NCBI RefSeq assembly: GCF_023634845.1
Contig: NZ_JAMLJL010000004.1
Location: 1-64,000, forward strand
Origin: Flavobacterium amniphilum
GTDB taxonomy: Bacteria; Bacteroidota; Bacteroidia; Flavobacteriales; Flavobacteriaceae
Direction of reading: 5' to 3'
DNA: 64,000 bases
The notes under the pieces are model-generated. The model was not told the DNA's origin, did no database searches, and was given only the letters and a program-made list of their open reading frames with translations. The stretch's first letter is position 1. Each line of letters begins with the position of its first letter. Position numbers and translations under genes: made by a program. Of the stretch, positions 48,114-54,749 are shown piece by piece.

Positions 48114-49214
48114 ATGAAAACTAAAATTACTCCCAGGTCAAATGCTTTATTCTTCGGTAAAGTATTCCAAATTACATTACTGCTTGTCACCTTTTCCGTA
48201 ACCTCCCAGAAAGCCAGCCAACCTATTGAAAACATAGTAAAAGAAGGCCGGATAGAAGAAGAACGGTTTATCACCATCAACGGAATCGAGCAATGGGTAA
48301 CCATCAAAGGCGAAAGATCCAAACCGGCCATATTATTCCTGCATGGCGGACCGGGAAGCCCTATCAGTCCGTATTCCCATATTTTATACGGACCATTGGA
48401 AAAAGATTTCATCATCATACAATGGGACCAAAGAGGCGCCGGGAGAACTTATGGACGTATAGCTCCGGCCGAATTAACCCCAGCCTATTTAAAAGCAAAC
48501 CCTTTGACAGTTGACCAAATCACCAATGACGGGATTGCACTTACCGAATACCTGACCCAATACCTTGGCAAACAAAAAATAACACTATTCGGGACATCGT
48601 GGGGTTCTGTTCCGGGAGTAAGAATGGCGGCTAAACGTCCGGATTTATTTACTGCCTATGTGGGCCATTCCCAAGTTGTGAACGAAACAGGCAATGATGT
48701 TACGACCTATCTGAAAGTAACCGATATGGCACAGGAAGCAAATGATCAGGAATCGTTGGAAATCCTGAAAACAATTGGCCCACCCCCTTACAGTCAGGCG
48801 AAAAATACCGGTATATTTTACCGTGTTATCAAAAAATACGAAAGAAAAAATGCTGTTCCTGCCCCCGATTACTGGTTTATACTTGCCCCGGATTACGACA
48901 ATAGCAAAGACAAACAAAACAGTGCCGACGGTGATGATTACTCTTTTGTCAATTTTGCAGGCGACAGCAAACTGGGCGTTCAACCGATGAGTGTTACCAT
49001 TAACAATATTAGGGATTATACAGATTTCAAAATACCCGTTTATTTCATTCAGGGAGAAGAAGACATTTTAACTCCGGCAGAAAGTACCAAAACCTATTTT
49101 GAAAAAATCAGCGCACCTAAGAAAAAATATATTGAGCTGGCGAAAACAGCACACGGTTTTAATCAGGCTGTACTTGATGCCCAGTACCAACTCTTCAGAA
49201 CCATCAACCGATAA
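48114..49214 (+). CDS. Exported alpha/beta-hydrolase, proline iminopeptidase-like
   Basis: A 366-residue protein with a hydrophobic N-terminal signal/anchor (about 12-33). LHGGPGSPISPY and QWDQRGAGRTYG are the oxyanion and family loops of proline iminopeptidase-type hydrolases; LFGTSWGSVPG gives the nucleophile Ser; FIQGEEDILTP and TAHGFNQ supply Asp and His. Releases N-terminal residues or hydrolyses an amide or ester; substrate not set. Alone, with its own promoter, then a hairpin near 49293. Confidence 0.82.
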   Translation: MKTKITPRSNALFFGKVFQITLLLVTFSVTSQKASQPIENIVKEGRIEEERFITINGIEQWVTIKGERSKPAILFLHGGPGSPISPYSHILYGPLEKDFIIIQWDQRGAGRTYGRIAPAELTPAYLKANPLTVDQITNDGIALTEYLTQYLGKQKITLFGTSWGSVPGVRMAAKRPDLFTAYVGHSQVVNETGNDVTTYLKVTDMAQEANDQESLEILKTIGPPPYSQAKNTGIFYRVIKKYERKNAVPAPDYWFILAPDYDNSKDKQNSADGDDYSFVNFAGDSKLGVQPMSVTINNIRDYTDFKIPVYFIQGEEDILTPAESTKTYFEKISAPKKKYIELAKTAHGFNQAVLDAQYQLFRTINR

Positions 49215-49332: not shown

Positions 49333-49384
49333 TATTAAAATCAGCCGAAATCTTTATAGGCCACAAAAAAGTACTCAGTTCATA

Positions 49385-49604
49385 GAACAAAGTCCCTTCC
49401 GTATAAAACAAAGTCACCTACACATAAAACAAATTCCCTTCCATATAAAACAAAATCACCTATCCACAAAACAAAGTCACTTCCATATAAAACAAAGTCC
49501 CCTACCCATAAAACAAAGTCACTTCCATATAAAACAAATTCACCTACTCATAAAACAAAGTCCCTTCTGTATAAAACAAAGTCCCTTCCGCATAAAACAA
49601 CTTA
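49385..49604. repeat. Tandem array, 10.5 units of 21 bp
   Basis: Ten full 21-bp units and a partial one, consensus near AAACAAAGTCACTTCCATATA; variable positions are mostly CTT/CCT and the last four bases. No spacers. Reading through it gives a heptad-repeat peptide, as expected from a 21-bp period, and I do not take that as a gene. It lies between convergent genes. Same period as the arrays at 190 and 23712, sequence unrelated. Confidence 0.95.
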
Positions 49605-49732: not shown

Positions 49733-50734
49733 TCATTGTGCAACAGACCTTGGGGTATTCAATAGCGCTTTGGCCAAAATCCATACCCTCCTTATCCTTA
49801 CCTGTACCCGTTTACTCGGTTTATAATTGGCACTATTAGTGAGCAAAACGCCGGACAGGATAACAAAAAGTCCCAGTAATTGGTTACTTCCGATTTGCTC
49901 ATTAGCGATGAACCATCCCAACAAAACAGCCACAATCGGGTTGATATAAGTATGCGTACTCACCAAAACCGGATCTTTCACTCCGAGCAACCAGATGTAA
50001 GACATATAAGCCACAATTGACCCGAAGAAAATCAGGAAAGCGAGTCCGAACCAGGCACCGGAGGTCACTTCAGTCACCTCAAACGTCTGCCATTCCCCTT
50101 TCAACAAAGCGATGAAGAAACTCGCCACACCTGCCGCGATAAGTTGTTGCGCCGTATTCATGAAAGTGGGCTGGTTTGCCGGATTACGTTTCGAATACAA
50201 AGAACCCAACACCCAGGAAATTGAACTTAAGGTCAGTACACCAAAGGCTATGATACGCTGAGTGCCGTTTGCATTAAGATTTTCCGTAGACACACTTCCC
50301 TTCAGGAACAGAATCAAACCGATGAAACCGATAATTAACCCCAGGACAATTGGCACATTCGAGAAATAATGCTTCCAGTTTTTCTTATCCAAAGCCACAA
50401 ACCAGAACGGTCCGGTTGCGATGGCGATAGCTGCTTCGGTCGAGGAAACATATTGTTCCCCCCACGCTACGAGTCCGCTCCCACCAGTTAAAATCAGAAT
50501 TCCCACGATTGCATTCTTCCGCCAGTTAACAAAAGAATTCCCTTTATGTCCTTTGGAACGCTGCCATACAAACAAAATCAGCCCGGCGGTAAAGAACCGC
50601 AAACCTGAAAGTACAAAAGGCGGAAAACTATGCAATGCAATTGCTATGGCCAAAAAAGTAGATCCCCAGATTATGTAAATACTCGCAAAAGCGATGAGAA
50701 CCTGTATTGTGAATTTAGTATTAGATATTGACAT
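49733..50734 (-). CDS. EamA-family DMT transporter, attenuator-controlled
   Basis: A 333-residue protein of ten TM helices in two five-helix EamA repeats (YIIWGSTFLAIAIALHSFPPF... start; family loop YVSSTEAAIAIATGPFW in part). EamA/DMT proteins include the E. coli O-acetylserine/cysteine exporter EamA, a family fact not proof here. Its leader holds two Cys/Met-rich leader ORFs each followed by a terminator (50755-51066), so its expression should respond to supply of charged Cys or Met tRNA. A sulfur-metabolite transporter is the best reading. Confidence 0.8.
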   Translation of the reverse strand: MSISNTKFTIQVLIAFASIYIIWGSTFLAIAIALHSFPPFVLSGLRFFTAGLILFVWQRSKGHKGNSFVNWRKNAIVGILILTGGSGLVAWGEQYVSSTEAAIAIATGPFWFVALDKKNWKHYFSNVPIVLGLIIGFIGLILFLKGSVSTENLNANGTQRIIAFGVLTLSSISWVLGSLYSKRNPANQPTFMNTAQQLIAAGVASFFIALLKGEWQTFEVTEVTSGAWFGLAFLIFFGSIVAYMSYIWLLGVKDPVLVSTHTYINPIVAVLLGWFIANEQIGSNQLLGLFVILSGVLLTNSANYKPSKRVQVRIRRVWILAKALLNTPRSVAQ

Positions 50735-50754: not shown

Positions 50755-50793
50755 AAAAAAAAGACCCTTTTCCATGGCGTTGAAAAAGGGTCT
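50755..50793 (-). terminator. Attenuator terminator T2 (proximal to eamA)
   Basis: Stem AGACCCTTTT (50762-50771) with AAAAGGGTCT (50784-50793) and an eight-base U-tract on the minus strand (50756-50761). Its 5' part TTTTTCAAC on the minus strand can pair with GTTGGAAAA of leader ORF L2 (50828-50836), a possible antiterminator. Confidence 0.75.
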
Positions 50794-50816
50794 GTTTACA
50801 ATTTGATTTAACTTGG

Positions 50817-50903
50817 TTACAGCATAATTTTCCAACAACAGCGCATTCGCATGATGCAAATACAATTATTCTTGACGATGTTTTTTTGAATTAAAGCTTT
50901 CAT
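50817..50903 (-). CDS. Leader peptide L2 (Cys/Met-rich), eamA attenuator
   Basis: A 28-codon ORF (ATG 50903, TAA) with Cys at codons 14, 16, 22 and 23 and Met at 18, 20 and 27; the core reads CICIMRMRCCW. It lies in the non-coding leader of eamA and ends 24 bases before terminator T2. It has no homology to a protein domain. Codon bias to sulfur amino acids and position mark it as a leader peptide whose translation tests Cys/Met-tRNA supply. Whether the stalled ribosome would leave the GTTGGAAAA segment free depends on which Cys codon it stops at; the late Cys22-23 would cover it. Confidence 0.75.
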   Translation of the reverse strand: MKALIQKNIVKNNCICIMRMRCCWKIML

Positions 50904-50920
50904 AACAGTTAAATTTAAGA

Positions 50921-50957
50921 TTAAAAAAAAGAGCCGCTCAACAAATGAACGGCTCTT
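50921..50957 (-). terminator. Attenuator terminator T1 (distal)
   Basis: AAGAGCCG (50929-50936) pairs with CGGCTCTT (50950-50957); minus-strand U-tract of eight at 50923-50930. Leader ORF L1 contains AACGGC (minus strand, 50987-50992) that can pair with GCCGTT inside this stem's 5' part (plus 50948-50953). Confidence 0.8.
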
Positions 50958-50982
50958 GGTGATATAAAATATACAATTATTT

Positions 50983-51066
50983 TCAGGCCGTTACATTCCA
51001 CGAGATTTGCTTGCGACATACCATGTTGCATACACTATTCACGTTATTTAGGCTCTTGTTATTCAT
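50983..51066 (-). CDS. Leader peptide L1 (Cys/Met-containing), eamA attenuator
   Basis: A 27-codon ORF (ATG 51066, TGA 50985-50983) with Cys at 13 and 17 and Met at 15 (VCNMVC) and Trp at 23. A -7 box (TATCTTTG, minus strand) lies 11 bp upstream. Codons 25-27 and the stop overlap the AACGGC antiterminator segment: a ribosome stalled at Cys13-17 leaves it free (readthrough), a ribosome at the stop covers it (termination). That is the textbook attenuator geometry. Confidence 0.75.
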   Translation of the reverse strand: MNNKSLNNVNSVCNMVCRKQISWNVTA

Positions 51067-51076
51067 AATTCTTTGG

Positions 51077-51084
51077 CAAAGATA
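51077..51084 (-). promoter_or_regulatory. -7 box of the eamA leader transcript
   Basis: On the minus strand TATCTTTG, 11 bp before the L1 start, putting the start site only a few bases before L1. Confidence 0.65.
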
Positions 51085-51191
51085 AAGTCATATTTTCAAG
51101 CTTTCCAAATAAAATTGCAAAAATTCTTACCCGTATACTGAAGATAATGCAACATTTCCCTTGTTATCCCTGATTAAAAAACGGAAAACAC

Positions 51192-51222
51192 AATAAAAAA
51201 ACACCAACGTTCCGGTTGGTGT
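51192..51222 (-). terminator. Terminator after the 109-residue gene
   Basis: ACACCAAC (51201-51208) pairs with GTTGGTGT (51215-51222); the minus strand continues TTTTTTATT. 42 bp after that gene's stop. Confidence 0.8.
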
Positions 51223-51263
51223 TTTAGATATAAAAAGTTTAATTACATGCCCAATCCAGGGAT

Positions 51264-51593
51264 TCAATTATGATGTATGACCGGGACATCCTGCCATTTT
51301 TTGGCCAGTTGTGTCATATTCGCTTTCATCAAATCTTCCGGGGTCATGGCGATTCTGAATTCGCAGTGCGCTTCAAAATTTAAAAACCAAGGTTCAGCAA
51401 TGGCCGGGATAGCAGAAGCATCGGCTACCTCAACAATCATAACCGCACCACGGTTACCTTCCTGTTCTGAAAAATAAATACTTTCAGGCTTAATATCTTC
51501 CACAACCCTATTGAGAAGTTCACCGGCAACGCCATTTCGAACCAATGTATTGAAAGGTTCAATAGGCATGATAACATTAACTAACATTTTCAT
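51264..51593 (-). CDS. Small alpha/beta-barrel-like protein, unassigned
   Basis: A 109-residue protein, MKMLVNVIMPIEPFNTLVRNG at the start and FEAHCEFRIAMTPEDLMKA at the end, looking like a dimeric alpha-beta barrel or DUF3303-like fold; not certain. A -7 box on the minus strand at 51618-51625 (TACCTTTG) supports the Met at 51593 rather than the ATG 18 codons upstream. It sits between the divergent eamA and metY leaders and has its own terminator, so it is probably independent of them. Confidence 0.6.
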   Translation of the reverse strand: MKMLVNVIMPIEPFNTLVRNGVAGELLNRVVEDIKPESIYFSEQEGNRGAVMIVEVADASAIPAIAEPWFLNFEAHCEFRIAMTPEDLMKANMTQLAKKWQDVPVIHHN

Positions 51594-51617
51594 AGCAATT
51601 GATTTAGAATTAACTCC

Positions 51618-51625
51618 CAAAGGTA
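51618..51625 (-). promoter_or_regulatory. -7 box of the 109-residue gene
   Basis: TACCTTTG on the minus strand, 24 bp before the start used. Confidence 0.55.
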
Positions 51626-51756
51626 CAAAATCAACACGGCATAACATATTGCAATCAACTAAATATCAACACATTAACAACTATAAAATTGTTACCAAAA
51701 AATCAAACACAAAACTGTATCAAATGTTAAATTTTTAAATTTTTAAAAAAAATCCA

Positions 51757-51786
51757 TTGTCAATTCAAAATAACTTCTCAAGTTTG
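51757..51786 (+). promoter_or_regulatory. Promoter of the metY leader transcript
   Basis: TTG at 51757-51759 and CAAGTTTG at 51779-51786 (one mismatch to TAnnTTTG) are separated by 19 bp, the usual spacing. Transcription should start about 8 bases later, about 20 bp before L3. Confidence 0.5.
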
Positions 51787-51811
51787 CAGTAACGAAAAAA
51801 GTAAGAAAAAA

Positions 51812-51880
51812 ATGAAATTAATGATTTGCAATATGTGTTGTTCAGTGTGGAAGACTTCTGCAGGGAAACCTATTGCATAA
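51812..51880 (+). CDS. Leader peptide L3 (Cys/Met-rich), metY attenuator
   Basis: A 22-codon ORF (ATG 51812, TAA 51878-51880) with Met at 4 and 8, Cys at 6, 9 and 10, and Trp at 13 (core MICNMCCSVW). Codons 16-18 hold TGCAGGG (51859-51865), which pairs with the 5' arm of terminator T3 (CCTCTGCA, 51910-51917), seven pairs including one G-U. A ribosome stalled on the Cys-Cys codons at 51836-51841 leaves that segment free to pair (antitermination); one that finishes the peptide covers it (termination). Confidence 0.8.
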   Translation: MKLMICNMCCSVWKTSAGKPIA

Positions 51881-51907
51881 ATTTTAATTTTTAAAATATA
51901 TCCAATT

Positions 51908-51937
51908 AACCTCTGCACACCGCAGGGGTTTTTTTAT
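51908..51937 (+). terminator. Attenuator terminator T3
   Basis: AACCTCTGC (51908-51916) pairs with GCAGGGGTT (51922-51930), a nine-pair stem with a five-base loop, then TTTTTTTATT. 28 bp after L3. Confidence 0.85.
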
Positions 51938-51991
51938 TCCCAAAACCAAACCAACCAAACTAAAAAAGAAAACCATTTAAATTCAATAATC

Positions 51992-52087
51992 ATGTACACA
52001 ACAGCAAACACCCGAATGAGTATTTCCATGATGAACACCTTGTGTTGCATTCGATGTTGCCGTTGCCAGAAGATACTGAAAACTTAG
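51992..52087 (+). CDS. Leader peptide L4 (Cys/Met-rich), metY attenuator
   Basis: A 31-codon ORF (ATG 51992, TAG 52085-52087) with Met at 9, 13 and 14 and Cys at 18, 19, 22, 23 and 25 (core CCIRCCRC). No promoter-like box separates it from T3, so it is in the same leader RNA and the two attenuators act in series. Segment CCAGAAG (52066-52072) can pair with CTTCCGG in T4 (52117-52123) with one mismatch, a weaker antiterminator than in L3. Confidence 0.78.
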   Translation: MYTTANTRMSISMMNTLCCIRCCRCQKILKT

Positions 52088-52112
52088 TCTAAGTTGATAT
52101 ACTTGTTTTTGT

Positions 52113-52151
52113 AGTCCTTCCGGTAACACACCTCCGGAGGGACTTTTTTTA
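52113..52151 (+). terminator. Attenuator terminator T4 (proximal to metY)
   Basis: AGTCCTTCCGG (52113-52123) pairs with CCGGAGGGACT (52134-52144), eleven pairs (one G-U), followed by seven T. The T-tract ends 82 bp before the metY start. Confidence 0.85.
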
Positions 52152-52232: not shown

Positions 52233-53525
52233 ATGAGTACACAAAAATTTGCAACAAACGCTTTACACGCAGGACATGACGTAACTAAAAATGCAGGAAC
52301 CAGAGCTGTCCCCATTTACCAAACCAGTTCGTATGTATTTAATAATTCGGAACATGCCGCCAATTTATTCGGATTGGCCGAAAGCGGATTCATTTACACC
52401 CGCTTGAACAACCCGACCAACGATATTTTGGAACAACGTCTGGCAAAACTCGAAGGCGGCGTTGGTGCAGTTGTTACCGCATCCGGAACCGCTGCGATTG
52501 CCACCACATTATTAACACTTTTAAAAGCAGGAGATCACATCGTTGCTTCCAACAGTTTATACGGCGGAACCTACAATCTTTTGAGCGTGACCCTACCGAG
52601 ACTGGGTATCACCACTACCTTTGTTGATCCGTCAAAACCTGAGAACTTCACTAAAGCCACCAAAGAAAACACCCGTGTCTTTTTTGCAGAGAGCTTAGGT
52701 AATCCCAAGCTCGATGTATTAGACTTAAAAGCCATTTCCAAAGAAGCAAGAAACTTCAAAGTGCCTTTTATCGTTGACAATACCGTGGCCACACCTTATC
52801 TTTTAAATCCTATTCAATACGGAGCCGATATTGTAATCCATTCATTGACCAAATACATTACCGGAAACGGAACATCGCTTGGCGGAGTGATTATCGATGC
52901 CGGTAACTTTGACTGGAGCAACGGTAAATTCCCTGAATTCACAGAACCATCGGCGGGCTATCACGGATTGAAATACCATGAAGCCTTGGGGCCGATTGCT
53001 TTCATAGCCAAAGTACGCATCGAAGGGTTGAGGGATTTCGGCGCCGCATTAAGTCCGTTCAATGCTTTTCAAACCATTCAGGGATTGGAGACATTGGAAA
53101 TCCGAATCAAGAAACATAGTGAGAATGCACTCGCTTTGGCCAAATGGTTACAGGCACAGGAAGAAGTGGCATGGGTAAATTATCCCGGATTAGCCACTTC
53201 GGATTATAAAAAACTGGCCGAAAAATACCTCCCGGAAGGACAAAGCGGTATTGTGACCTTTGGACTGAAAGGCGGCTATGAAGCAGCGAAGAAAGTAGCC
53301 GATGAAACCAAATTATTCTCACTGTTGGCCAATATCGGTGATACCAAATCACTGATTATCCATCCGGCCAGTACGACCCACCAACAATTATCCGAGACCG
53401 AGCAATTAACAACCGGAGTAACCAAAGACCTCATCCGCTTATCGGTGGGACTGGAAGATATTGAAGACCTGAAAGCCGATTTAAAAGAAGTGTTTGCTAA
53501 CATCAAAACACCTCAATTGGCGTAA
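52233..53525 (+). CDS. metY: O-acetylhomoserine sulfhydrylase (PLP enzyme)
   Basis: A 430-residue Cys/Met metabolism PLP enzyme. YTRLNNPTNDILEQRLAKLEGG (start YTRLNNPTNDILEQRL) and ASGTAAI are family signatures; Lys207 in HSLTKY holds PLP. The insert AGYHGLKYHEALGPIAFI and the 430-residue length fit MetY rather than cystathionine gamma-synthase. It makes homocysteine from O-acetylhomoserine and sulfide in methionine synthesis. It lies behind the two L3/L4 attenuators and 123 bp before the homoserine dehydrogenase gene. An O-acetyltransferase gene is not in the window. Confidence 0.9.
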   Translation: MSTQKFATNALHAGHDVTKNAGTRAVPIYQTSSYVFNNSEHAANLFGLAESGFIYTRLNNPTNDILEQRLAKLEGGVGAVVTASGTAAIATTLLTLLKAGDHIVASNSLYGGTYNLLSVTLPRLGITTTFVDPSKPENFTKATKENTRVFFAESLGNPKLDVLDLKAISKEARNFKVPFIVDNTVATPYLLNPIQYGADIVIHSLTKYITGNGTSLGGVIIDAGNFDWSNGKFPEFTEPSAGYHGLKYHEALGPIAFIAKVRIEGLRDFGAALSPFNAFQTIQGLETLEIRIKKHSENALALAKWLQAQEEVAWVNYPGLATSDYKKLAEKYLPEGQSGIVTFGLKGGYEAAKKVADETKLFSLLANIGDTKSLIIHPASTTHQQLSETEQLTTGVTKDLIRLSVGLEDIEDLKADLKEVFANIKTPQLA

Positions 53526-53648: not shown

Positions 53649-54749
53649 ATGTCTGCGATCAGAATCAATATAGTGCTTTTCGGCATTGGGAATGTGGGAA
53701 GCAAATTAATCAGTCAAATACTGGAAAGCCAAAAGTTCTTTCTGGAAAAAAGAAACATAGAATTGCGTTTTCCAGTGATTACCAATTCGACTTTGGCCTT
53801 TTTTGAGAAAGACGGAATCGCCAACCAATGGGAAGCCGACTTCAGGAGATCAGCTTTTCCTTATACGTTTGGCGACATCATCAGTTATGTGCAGGAACAG
53901 CAGTTGGACAACCTTATTGCCATAGATGCGACCAACAGTGATACCTTGATTAAGAATTATATTTCTTTGGTCCAAAACGGATTCGACATTGTATCAGCCA
54001 ATAAGAATGCCAATACCGTGCACATTGACTTTTACAAGGAACTCCGCCGCAACCTGAAAAAATTTGACAAAACATTTCATTACGGAGCATCAGTTTCGGG
54101 CGGATTACCCATACTCGATACCATCAGGGATTTATACTTATCCGGAGAAGAAATCACCAAAGTGAGGGGTGTGTTTTCGGAATCCTTAAGTTATATTTTC
54201 AATAGGTTTTCAAGGGAAGATGTTTCGTTTTCAACCTTATTGGAAGAGGCCGAAAAACTAAAATTGGCCCCGTCTGACTCGCGCTTGGATCTGGCAACAG
54301 CAGAAGTCGCTGAAAAAGTACTGATTCTCGCAAGAGAACTTGGTTTGGAGGCCGATTATACGGATGTGCGGATTAATTCCCTGCACTATCCGAATGCGAA
54401 CCATCCGCAATTAAAGCCGGATTCAACCATTCAGAAAAAGCTATTGGACAGCTCGTATCAGGTAGCCAAGCTCAGCCAGTCGAGAAGCCGTGTTTTGCGG
54501 TACATTGGGGAGATTGATTTGAAAGAAAAAACAGTTGAAGCCAAGCTTGTATCAGAATCGGAAGTCACACCGATTGGACAACTGAACGGAGCTACTACCT
54601 TGGTTGAAATATATACCGGTTCAAATCCGGACAACCCTATCGTGATTCAGGGTTCGGGAACTGAAAGCAGCAGTATTGCCAGAAGTATTCTGAAAGATAT
54701 TCTTAAAATCGCCGAACAAGTTAAGGTTAGGGAGGCGGTTTGGGCCTAA
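53649..54749 (+). CDS. hom: Homoserine dehydrogenase
   Basis: A 366-residue enzyme. NAD(P) site LFGIGNVGSKL (about 9-19), family core VSANKNANTV and HYGASVSGGLPILDTIRDL (SVSGGLPILDTI), with DSRLDLATAEVAEK as the catalytic part. It reduces aspartate semialdehyde to homoserine, feeding the metY branch. No ACT domain, so no allosteric threonine site is seen. The frame extends 28 codons upstream but the ATG at 53649 gives the normal family start. Same operon as metY, ending at a hairpin. Confidence 0.9.
   Translation: MSAIRINIVLFGIGNVGSKLISQILESQKFFLEKRNIELRFPVITNSTLAFFEKDGIANQWEADFRRSAFPYTFGDIISYVQEQQLDNLIAIDATNSDTLIKNYISLVQNGFDIVSANKNANTVHIDFYKELRRNLKKFDKTFHYGASVSGGLPILDTIRDLYLSGEEITKVRGVFSESLSYIFNRFSREDVSFSTLLEEAEKLKLAPSDSRLDLATAEVAEKVLILARELGLEADYTDVRINSLHYPNANHPQLKPDSTIQKKLLDSSYQVAKLSQSRSRVLRYIGEIDLKEKTVEAKLVSESEVTPIGQLNGATTLVEIYTGSNPDNPIVIQGSGTESSSIARSILKDILKIAEQVKVREAVWA

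Follow-up and report, generated by a model that had tools for sequence, protein, structure and literature searches.

The window analysed here, a stretch of 64,000 nucleotides from Flavobacterium amniphilum (positions 1 to 64,000 of contig NZ_JAMLJL010000004.1), carries four very short ORFs rich in cysteine and methionine codons, two upstream of eamA and two upstream of metY, which raises the question of what such ORFs do in front of these genes. The earlier note on this DNA took them for leader peptides which, together with terminator/antiterminator pairs, constitute ribosome-mediated attenuators. This proposal is well supported by anatomy, conservation and the kind of genes controlled, as well as by alternative pairing in silico and codon placement. 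Judged from the sequence, each ORF-terminator unit very probably works by ribosome-mediated transcription attenuation, with the charging state of the Met and Cys tRNAs as its signal.

On the plus strand, a promoter-like -7 box read from the sequence (51779..51786, 5/6 matches to TAnnTTTG) is followed by metY leader peptide 1 (MKLMICNMCCSVWKTSAGKPIA, 22 aa, 51812..51880), counterparts of which are carried by relatives. This ORF includes the predicted antiterminator 5' strand GCAGGG (51860..51865), whose partner is the 5' arm of terminator T3 (51908..51930, then a U-tract; consensus scan and folding). Leader peptide 2 (MYTTANTRMSISMMNTLCCIRCCRCQKILKT, 31 aa, 51992..52087) contains a putative antiterminator 5' strand with imperfect pairing (52066..52077) and precedes terminator T4 and its U-tract (52113..52144; dG -18.7), which was found by folding, since its loop of 10 nt exceeded the limit of 8 nt in the terminator scan. 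The genes that follow are metY (O-acetylhomoserine sulfhydrylase; TIGR01326, PF01053; 52233..53525) and hom (homoserine dehydrogenase; PF00742; 53649..54749), both on the plus strand and both encoding proteins with 0 Cys and 0 internal Met.

The eamA locus lies on the minus strand and has the same layout. Its promoter-like -7 box TATCTTTG (51077..51084), also read from the sequence, recurs as an identical octamer in one relative (L117) and precedes eamA leader peptide 1 (MNNKSLNNVNSVCNMVCRKQISWNVTA, 27 aa, 50983..51066), with the predicted antiterminator 5' strand AACGGC (50987..50992) and terminator T2 (50929..50957, consensus scan). Next come leader peptide 2 (MKALIQKNIVKNNCICIMRMRCCWKIML, 28 aa, 50817..50903), in which the predicted antiterminator 5' strand TGGAAAA (50828..50834) is weak, terminator T1 (50762..50793, consensus scan) and the gene for an EamA-family transporter (49733..50734; PF00892), whose top NCBIfam model, the YedA exporter, scored under its cut-off.

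The four ORFs (27, 28, 22 and 31 codons) and the terminator behind each of them (T1, T2 and T3 from the consensus scan, T4 from folding) are thus present as had been claimed, and the earlier tally, 14 Cys and 9 non-start Met, is correct (104 non-start residues). The enrichment is also confirmed, with binomial P values of 2.4e-8 for Cys (background 2%) and 1.2e-3 for Met (background 2.5%); ordinary usage in the window is 0.59% Cys and 1.75% Met overall (54 ORFs of at least 150 aa). The picture of four separate attenuators probably has to be revised, because only the first leader of each pair has a promoter-like box ahead of it: metY and eamA are probably each placed under two attenuators in series, read from one promoter. 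Among two-leader loci, a -7 box with 5 or 6 of 6 matches was found before the first leader in 50/50 and before the second in 18/50 (229/550 in shuffled sequences).

In the mechanism that we propose, RNA polymerase would transcribe a short ORF in which the Met/Cys codons are followed, close to the ORF end, by a segment capable of pairing with the next terminator's 5' arm. With ample Met and Cys, the ribosome would reach the stop codon and cover the segment, which would allow the terminator to fold and stop transcription. A shortage of charged tRNA would stall the ribosome at the Met/Cys codons and leave the segment free to capture the 5' arm as an antiterminator, and transcription would go on. 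For metY and eamA the order would be leader 1, terminator, leader 2, terminator, gene. We infer here that the ORFs are translated, that ribosomes stall on them, that the response runs in this direction and that single transcripts span each series. Methionine starvation should also cut the charging of initiator tRNA, which would oppose leader translation and counts against the model; if the model is true, it raises the puzzle of a ribosome that reports Met shortage although initiation itself needs Met-tRNA.

Conservation within the genus is extensive. A Met/Cys-rich ORF followed by a terminator precedes metY in 105 of the 110 loci examined and eamA in 3/3, while the antisense control gave 0/110 and shuffling 0-1/110 in each of 10 rounds. 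The 110 loci are 115 matches minus five (G014, G076, G144, G168 and G169), of which G014 and G076 were later found to have leaders; among the five loci that failed the leader criteria, one was barely below the threshold. At cysH, 25/30 loci have no leader. The earlier note had named, as a finding that would speak against attenuation, ORFs or Met/Cys codons left unconserved in relatives while the terminators drift; in the sequence half of this test, which was run, the ORFs with their Met/Cys codons proved to be retained.

Leader length and sequence differ widely among relatives, and only the Met/Cys columns of the leader alignments are less variable, other residues varying more. A low pN/pS, as a sign of selection on the peptide, was not seen in the leaders: the ratio was 1.0 for 26 distinct leaders of 26 codons (codons 2-21) and 0.68 for 31 distinct leaders of 22 codons (codons 2-14), compared with 0.20 over the first 20 codons of metY. 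Moreover, GCAGRG in leader 1 is preserved although 31 leaders read it in one frame and 19 in another, therefore its RNA, not its peptide, appears to be under selection. The relative conservation of the Met/Cys columns would suit functional small proteins whose transcripts are merely ended by the terminators, yet the widely variable length and sequence and the reading of GCAGRG in two frames argue against this explanation, which also leaves the pairing between ORF end and terminator unaccounted for; we consider it extremely unlikely.

The claim that each ORF is able to pair with the 5' arm of its own terminator stands when a ribosome footprint is modelled, but is weaker in a plain duplex test; the pairing is plain for first leaders and less so for the rest when each is taken by itself. 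In footprint folding, arm sequestration with the ribosome stalled and at the stop codon, respectively, was 0.57 and 0.01 for metY leader 1, 0.70 and 0.15 for metY leader 2, 0.81 and 0.04 for eamA leader 1, and 0.60 and 0.07 for eamA leader 2 (shuffle P of 0.06, 0.005, 0.005 and 0.055, in the same order); the plain duplex P values were 0.03, 0.13, 0.07 and 0.37. Over 155 leaders, with the stall placed at the median Met/Cys codon, the arm was sequestered at 0.72 stalled versus 0.22 at the stop (shuffled, 0.38 versus 0.31), and P<=0.065 was obtained for 125 of them. An earlier version with the stall at the densest Met/Cys cluster gave 0.63 and 0.22 (156 leaders), with low values for metY leader 2 (0.24/0.15) and eamA leader 2 (0.07/0.07), because late Cys codons were then used as stall sites in both second leaders. 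Single duplex tests reached P<=0.05 in 87/167 metY, 7/10 cysH, 1/6 eamA and 1/8 metN leaders. Ungapped pairing scores did so in 106/155 leaders against mononucleotide shuffles and were weak for many second leaders; many second leaders enclose two further hairpins. In the two-leader loci, the summed pairing of tails with their own arms exceeded the crossed pairing in 49/50 (44 for first leaders by themselves, 45 for second leaders), and in a set of 20 representative switches only 3 arms had their cognate tail as the top-ranking partner.

Codon placement agrees with a stalled ribosome. In the 125/155 leaders with a clear pairing segment, the Met share was 38-56% for codons whose end lies 12-29 nt upstream of the segment start and 12% for those at 6-11 nt, and it was 0% in the stretch from 5 nt upstream of this start to 12 nt beyond. 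Met codons, in other words, avoid the zone in which a stalled ribosome would cover the predicted antiterminator segment. The same codon logic was found with unrelated terminator sequences, which argues against a translation-independent RNA element (a riboswitch or a tRNA-binding RNA) that is accompanied by Met/Cys ORFs by coincidence. The extra conserved hairpins that follow leader 2, ahead of its terminator, speak for such an element; however, the leaders of the window have no Rfam match and the ORF-terminator combination occurs in 105/110 loci in sense and in 0 in antisense, and we regard this explanation as very unlikely. In the second-leader class (23 sequences), 5 base pairs have changed on both sides, all in two hairpins outside the search pattern, and when partner columns were slid in the covariation test there were still 0-4 such pairs.

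Which amino acid is read is a separate matter. The earlier note proposed Cys or Met tRNA charging as the signal; the leaders are indeed rich in both, but the dominance of Cys is a trait of the metY and eamA copies of this species. The 143 metY leaders of the genus contain 20.4% Met and 13.6% Cys, and some leaders have 6-8 Met and 0 Cys, or 10 Met and 1 Cys. Cysteine as the main signal across the genus was discarded; leaders of distant species hold on to Met and drop Cys. In the F. amniphilum genome itself, the leader of a cystathionine-synthase-like (PLP) gene has 6 Met and 0 Cys, and the cysH leaders are Cys-rich (3 Met, 9 Cys), so codon choice within one genome fits the gene that would be controlled. 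Cys and Met also bind metals and are oxidised, and peptides rich in them might sense copper, oxidants or thiol state by stalling or folding and work the same terminator switch. In line with such nascent-peptide or redox/metal sensing, a Cys run adjoins the antiterminator, and Cys homeostasis or redox status has been raised for mycobacterial Cys-rich upstream ORFs in the part of Shell et al. (PMC4633059) available to us. Nevertheless, the downstream genes serve mostly Met/Cys synthesis and uptake, some leaders have no Cys and up to 8 Met, and residues other than Met/Cys are more variable, all of which makes sensing of this kind quite improbable.

Within the attenuation model, the late Cys codons deserve a remark. 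In 59 second-type leaders, a further, conserved run of Cys touches the antiterminator segment: Cys occupies 63-84% of the codons that end between 3 nt upstream of the segment start and 3 nt past it. When footprint folding was repeated at every Met/Cys codon, predicted sequestration in metY leader 2 was 0.24-0.30 at C22, C23 and C25 versus 0.69-0.70 at M9 to C19, and in eamA leader 2 it was 0.15-0.17 at C22 and C23 versus 0.56-0.60 at C14 to M18. Second leaders might accordingly be two-input gates, in which a stall at Met or early Cys codons turns the gene on and a stall at late Cys codons covers the antiterminator and turns it off; metY would therefore be made if Met is short and shut if Cys is short, sparing sulfide for cysteine. 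We put this forward tentatively and consider it rather doubtful. A duller alternative may be an RNA-level preference for TRY codons, as Tyr often replaces Cys at the late positions.

The genus metY proteins lack Cys and internal Met (30/30) and therefore could be made during starvation. This is a weak argument, because the metY proteins of genera without leaders hold hardly any Cys or Met either, and other proteins under such switches contain them (PLP enzyme of the same genome, 7 Cys and 4 Met; its cysH, 5 Cys; metN, 3 Cys and 5 Met).

Similar switches were found before some copies of cysH, cysE, metN, metX, hom, the cystathionine-synthase-like gene and a TonB receptor gene. The pattern GCAGRG-N-CCTCTGC-N-GCAGRGGTTT, which specifies nothing about codons, had 53 matches in 50/150 genomes, and the reversed pattern had 0. 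All 30 of the matches that were fetched had a leader ORF with at least three Met/Cys; the next genes, most of them named by likeness, were those for a TonB receptor (13), metY (10), a PLP enzyme (2), cysH, cysE, metX and hom (1 each) and one unidentified. Beyond these 30, downstream genes were read at the matches within the F. amniphilum genome, at one match in G038 and at the metY loci of the main set. The peptide pattern MMMCC gave 30 matches in 28/150 genomes (control, 4), 20 of them leaders before metY (14), cysH (3) and metN (3), the other 10 not being recognised as leaders. If the switches are real, a sulfur regulon has been predicted from sequence alone, its sets varying by species: metY, metX, hom, cysH, cysE, metN, eamA, the PLP enzyme, the TonB receptor and an OsmC-like protein.

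Classical ribosome-mediated attenuators are those of the trp, his, leu, ilv, thr and phe operons of Proteobacteria. The Flavobacterium leaders resemble them in having a short ORF with codons for the end product, a segment that is covered once a ribosome has reached the stop codon, and mutually exclusive antiterminator and terminator; they differ in that Met and Cys would be sensed, often mixed, in that two complete attenuators often stand in series, and in belonging to Bacteroidota. Methionine control in bacteria is known to be exerted by SAM riboswitches, T-boxes or repressors, and no case of a leader-peptide system for methionine was found in the literature searched; the present one, if true, would be such a system. 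Cys-rich leader peptides of cys genes are described for Actinobacteria in the portions of PMC1262725 and PMC4633059 at hand, likewise as short ORFs with a Cys codon run upstream of sulfur genes. In the available text of PMC1262725 the Cys codons stand close to the stop and a terminator hairpin was not detected, whereas in Flavobacterium Met codons prevail at metY and there is an intrinsic terminator as well as a predicted antiterminator. The statement that no such system is described in Bacteroidota was too strong, given the accessible parts of two papers: leader-peptide attenuation has been inferred for amino-acid operons of F. psychrophilum, where structured 5' elements, e.g. of pheA and hisG, are conserved beyond the genus (PMC9723704), and leader-peptide-like short ORFs have been noted in Bacteroides (PMC7366714). 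Met/Cys leaders, the tandem layout and the exchange with SAM-I are absent from the available text of PMC9723704, though its Table S7 may list metY; that table aside, no Met or Cys version in Bacteroidota was found in the literature searched.

In the related genera examined (the 28 loci most like the metY of the window, among 135 further genomes with a match; 20 of the 28 scanned with Rfam), an S-adenosylmethionine riboswitch takes the place of the leaders before metY in most cases. The SAM-I riboswitch (RF00162) senses S-adenosylmethionine, whereas the Flavobacterium leaders are proposed to sense tRNA charging; if this is true, a single gene has changed its sensor within one family, the alternatives being the SAM-I riboswitch and tandem leader peptides. 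No SAM-I aptamer was detected at metY in the window or in 18 genus metY loci scanned, and the covariance model found no T-box at gathering score in the window or 20 related loci. A known RNA family was dismissed, there being no Rfam match at the leaders in the window or related loci; the only Rfam matches in the 20 related loci were SAM-II motifs, and these lay in antisense orientation to metY. The F. amniphilum genome has one SAM-I copy of its own, located before metH.

The window comes from a draft genome of 4.3 Mb. Its metY (52233-53525, +; TIGR01326, PF01053) and hom (53649-54749, +; PF00742) genes run rightward, and the gene of an EamA-family transporter, eamA, runs leftward (50734-49733, -; PF00892). 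The four short ORFs and four terminators described in the earlier note are all present as claimed; their Met and Cys residues were counted and a binomial test was performed. On the metY side the order is leader 1 (51812-51880, +), terminator T3 (51908-51930, +), leader 2 (51992-52087, +), T4 (52113-52144, +) and metY, and on the eamA side leader 1 (51066-50983, -), T2 (50957-50929, -), leader 2 (50903-50817, -), T1 (50793-50762, -) and eamA. Between the eamA and metY leaders lies a 127-aa ORF (51264-51647, -), for which no Pfam or NCBIfam match was found at E 0.001, with a terminator-like hairpin past its end (51225-51198). The gap separating the 3' end of eamA from the ORF that ends at 49214 contains a tandem array of a 42-base unit (49381-49600; 5.2 copies, 86% matches).

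The earlier note had proposed looking for these Met/Cys ORFs and terminators in flavobacterial relatives, and they are conserved there. At E<=1e-150, metY was found in 113 of the 199 genus genomes, and upstream DNA was examined for 110 of the 115 matches (30 loci and 80 further stretches). A leader was defined as an ORF with at least three Met plus Cys residues, exceeding 15% of its length, and a terminator of -9 kcal/mol or better at most 90 nt away. This rule detected a leader at 105/110 metY loci and at 0/110 in antisense; ten shuffled rounds of 110 gave 1, 0, 0, 0, 0, 0, 0, 1, 0 and 0. A stricter rule retained 100/110 and detected none in antisense or in any of five shuffled rounds. At least two leaders within 900 nt occur at 50 of the 110 loci. 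Among the five failing loci, one (L101) has a leader just under the rule, and inspection of the other four revealed no leader with a terminator. The eamA gene is rare in the genus (3/199 genomes at E<=1e-80), and each of its three copies is accompanied by two leaders and two terminators. The window's metY leader 1 lacks Met codons kept by many relatives (NMCCSVW versus NMCCMMW). The leaders do not show a low pN/pS, which counts against the attenuator reading.

In leader 1, GCAGRG near the ORF end pairs with the terminator sequence CCTCTGC. As GCAGRG is kept in two reading frames, e.g. PQR versus SAE (31 and 19 leaders), selection acts on the RNA. A changed terminator often goes with a changed ORF end; GCAGGGCTT pairs with AAGCCCTTGC, with one bulge, at locus L109, CAAGAGGC with GCCTCTTG at the cysH locus L208, and AACGGC with GCCGTT at eamA. 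Summed own pairings exceed crossed pairings in 49/50 two-leader loci. Against pairing specificity, only 3 of 20 representative switches have an arm whose best-ranking tail is the cognate one, and duplex tests on single leaders were often not significant, a result unfavourable to the attenuator reading. Two small hairpins lie inside the pairing of leader 2. In the 23 sequences compared, 93.9% of cells are paired, and both sides have changed in five base pairs, all of them within these hairpins; the outer helix is part of the search pattern, so it was not counted as covariation evidence. Sliding the partner as a control reduced pairing to at most 59.1%, yet gave 0-4 pairs with changes on both sides.

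Among codons whose last base falls between 5 nt before the start of the pairing segment and 12 nt past it, Met makes up 0%; its share is 12% in codons that end 6-11 nt upstream and 38-56% in those that end 12-29 nt upstream (125/155 leaders). Such a placement is what one would predict for a switch in which the stalled ribosome has to keep off the pairing segment. When the 155 leaders were folded with a ribosome footprint, sequestration of the terminator arm was 0.72 for a stalled ribosome and 0.22 for one at the stop codon (shuffles, 30 per leader: 0.38 and 0.31). The corresponding values in the window are 0.57/0.01 and 0.70/0.15 for metY leaders 1 and 2, and 0.81/0.04 and 0.60/0.07 for eamA leaders 1 and 2. 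The Cys (or Tyr) codons that second leaders carry in a late run reach the antiterminator, and a stall there would favour termination. A single transcript probably carries both leader-terminator units, which would then work in series: all 50 two-leader loci have a TAnnTTTG-like box (5 or 6 of 6) ahead of the first leader, and 18/50 have one ahead of the second (shuffled level 229/550).

The 143 metY leaders passing the strict rule are 20.4% Met and 13.6% Cys. Of the metY leaders from distant species, MNTVYTMMMTMMMWRNPQGLLFA has 6 Met and no Cys, and MIFNTNTMMMAMMMMNMMMFTTPYCLKSTS has 10 Met and a single late Cys; one further leader of that set has 8 Met and no Cys. In the window's own genome, Cys is absent from the leader of a cystathionine-synthase-like PLP enzyme (cystathionine synthase/lyase family, contig C5), which has 6 Met; Cys and Met number 9 and 3 in the two cysH leaders, 8 and 5 in the metY leaders, and 6 and 4 in the eamA leaders. 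Judged by these codons, leader composition in this genome fits the downstream gene. The rule is not strict, because the cysH leaders of two other genomes hold 17 Met and 12 Cys. We conclude that both Met and Cys would be sensed. A shortage of Met should also hinder initiation, which is a point against Met-sensing by the leaders.

Bacteroid-trp is a trp leader. One source lists it among Bacteroidetes motifs (PMC2864571), another notes short ORFs resembling leader peptides in B. thetaiotaomicron (PMC7366714), and a third infers leader-peptide attenuation in F. psychrophilum (PMC9723704). The last of these narrows the earlier note's statement that no such system was known from Bacteroidota; searches of open-access literature yielded no Met/Cys case in Bacteroidota and no Met leader-peptide attenuator. 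Cys-rich leaders are known from Actinobacteria, where they are without terminators in a 2005 study (PMC1262725, PMC4633059).

Leaders also precede other genes. By homology, cysH occurs in 37/61 genomes, with leaders at 5 of the 30 loci read (own genome included); the 25 without are mostly more distant copies. Similarly identified, metN occurs in 10/61 genomes and has a leader at 8/10. DNA patterns specifying the antiterminator and terminator alone gave 53 matches in 50/150 genomes for leader 1 (reversed control 0) and 47 in 45/150 for leader 2 (control 1). Met/Cys leaders were present at 30/30 fetched leader-1 loci (of the 53 matches), followed by a TonB receptor (13), metY (10), the PLP enzyme (2), and cysH, cysE, metX, hom and an unidentified gene (1 each). 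They were present at 27/30 fetched leader-2 loci (of the 47), followed by metY (22), an OsmC-like protein (3), hom (1) and metX (1). In G109, the single genome whose TonB region of this kind was read whole, the receptor sits between metY leaders 1 and 2. Family tests covered one member each of cysH, metN, cysE, the PLP enzyme and the TonB receptor, and a 60-residue metX piece; cysH, metN, an EpsC-type serine acetyltransferase (cysE) and the Pfam domains of the PLP enzyme and TonB receptor scored above the cut-off, and the metX piece far below it. Remaining family members, the OsmC-like proteins and hom next to leaders outside the window were named by likeness alone. The OsmC-like genes behind Met/Cys leaders (L306, L319, L335) are possibly thiol-related.

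Scanning the genome_contigs collection for NMCCMMW returned 22 stretches, 21 of them with the leader-1 terminator and the other a Cytophagales contig; the next gene was metY in 15, cysE in 5 (one cut by the contig end) and cysH in 1. One contig of a Candidatus Nitrotoga MAG (L256, CALQCV020000158.1) encodes a metY of Flavobacterium type (91% identical) together with leaders; its placement in this MAG is probably a misbinning.

Neither Cys nor internal Met occurs in the window's metY and hom products, which rank in the bottom three for Cys/Met when its 54 ORFs of 150 aa or longer are compared. All 30 genus metY proteins checked are likewise free of both, and 24 from other genera without leaders average 0.08 each; the near-absence is therefore a property of the enzyme. 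Sulfur residues do occur in other regulated proteins: the own genome's PLP enzyme has 7 Cys and 4 Met, its cysH product has 5 Cys, and metN has 3 Cys and 5 Met. Sulfur-free metY and hom are compatible with synthesis under starvation and do not prove attenuation.

A family-wide search (one genome per genus, two for the own genus) found metY in 136/199 genomes, i.e. 135/198 genera. Leaders occur at 4 of the 28 other-genus metY loci read, those closest to the window's metY. An Rfam scan of 20 of these 28 loci placed a SAM-I riboswitch directly upstream of metY in all 16 without leaders, and none upstream of metY at the 4 with leaders. SAM-I is still present in 104/121 genus genomes and in 0/18 genus metY loci scanned. 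The own genome has a single SAM-I, ahead of metH (named from sequence), and metH adjoins SAM-I in 5/9 further genus loci read. Since SAM-I precedes metH and is absent at the scanned metY loci, SAM would control metH, and Met and Cys tRNA charging would control metY. Within the family, metY would have exchanged one sensor for the other. Switches of sensing system at one gene are already known (PMC2965389). SAM-II (RF01726) lies on the strand opposite to metY in 4 of the 18 genus metY loci scanned (L097:818-921, L102:886-990, L103:531-635, L112:712-771), where it apparently sits before metY's divergent neighbour. The window itself holds two Flavo-1 RNA motifs (RF01705; 5426-5512, + and 16857-16946, -).
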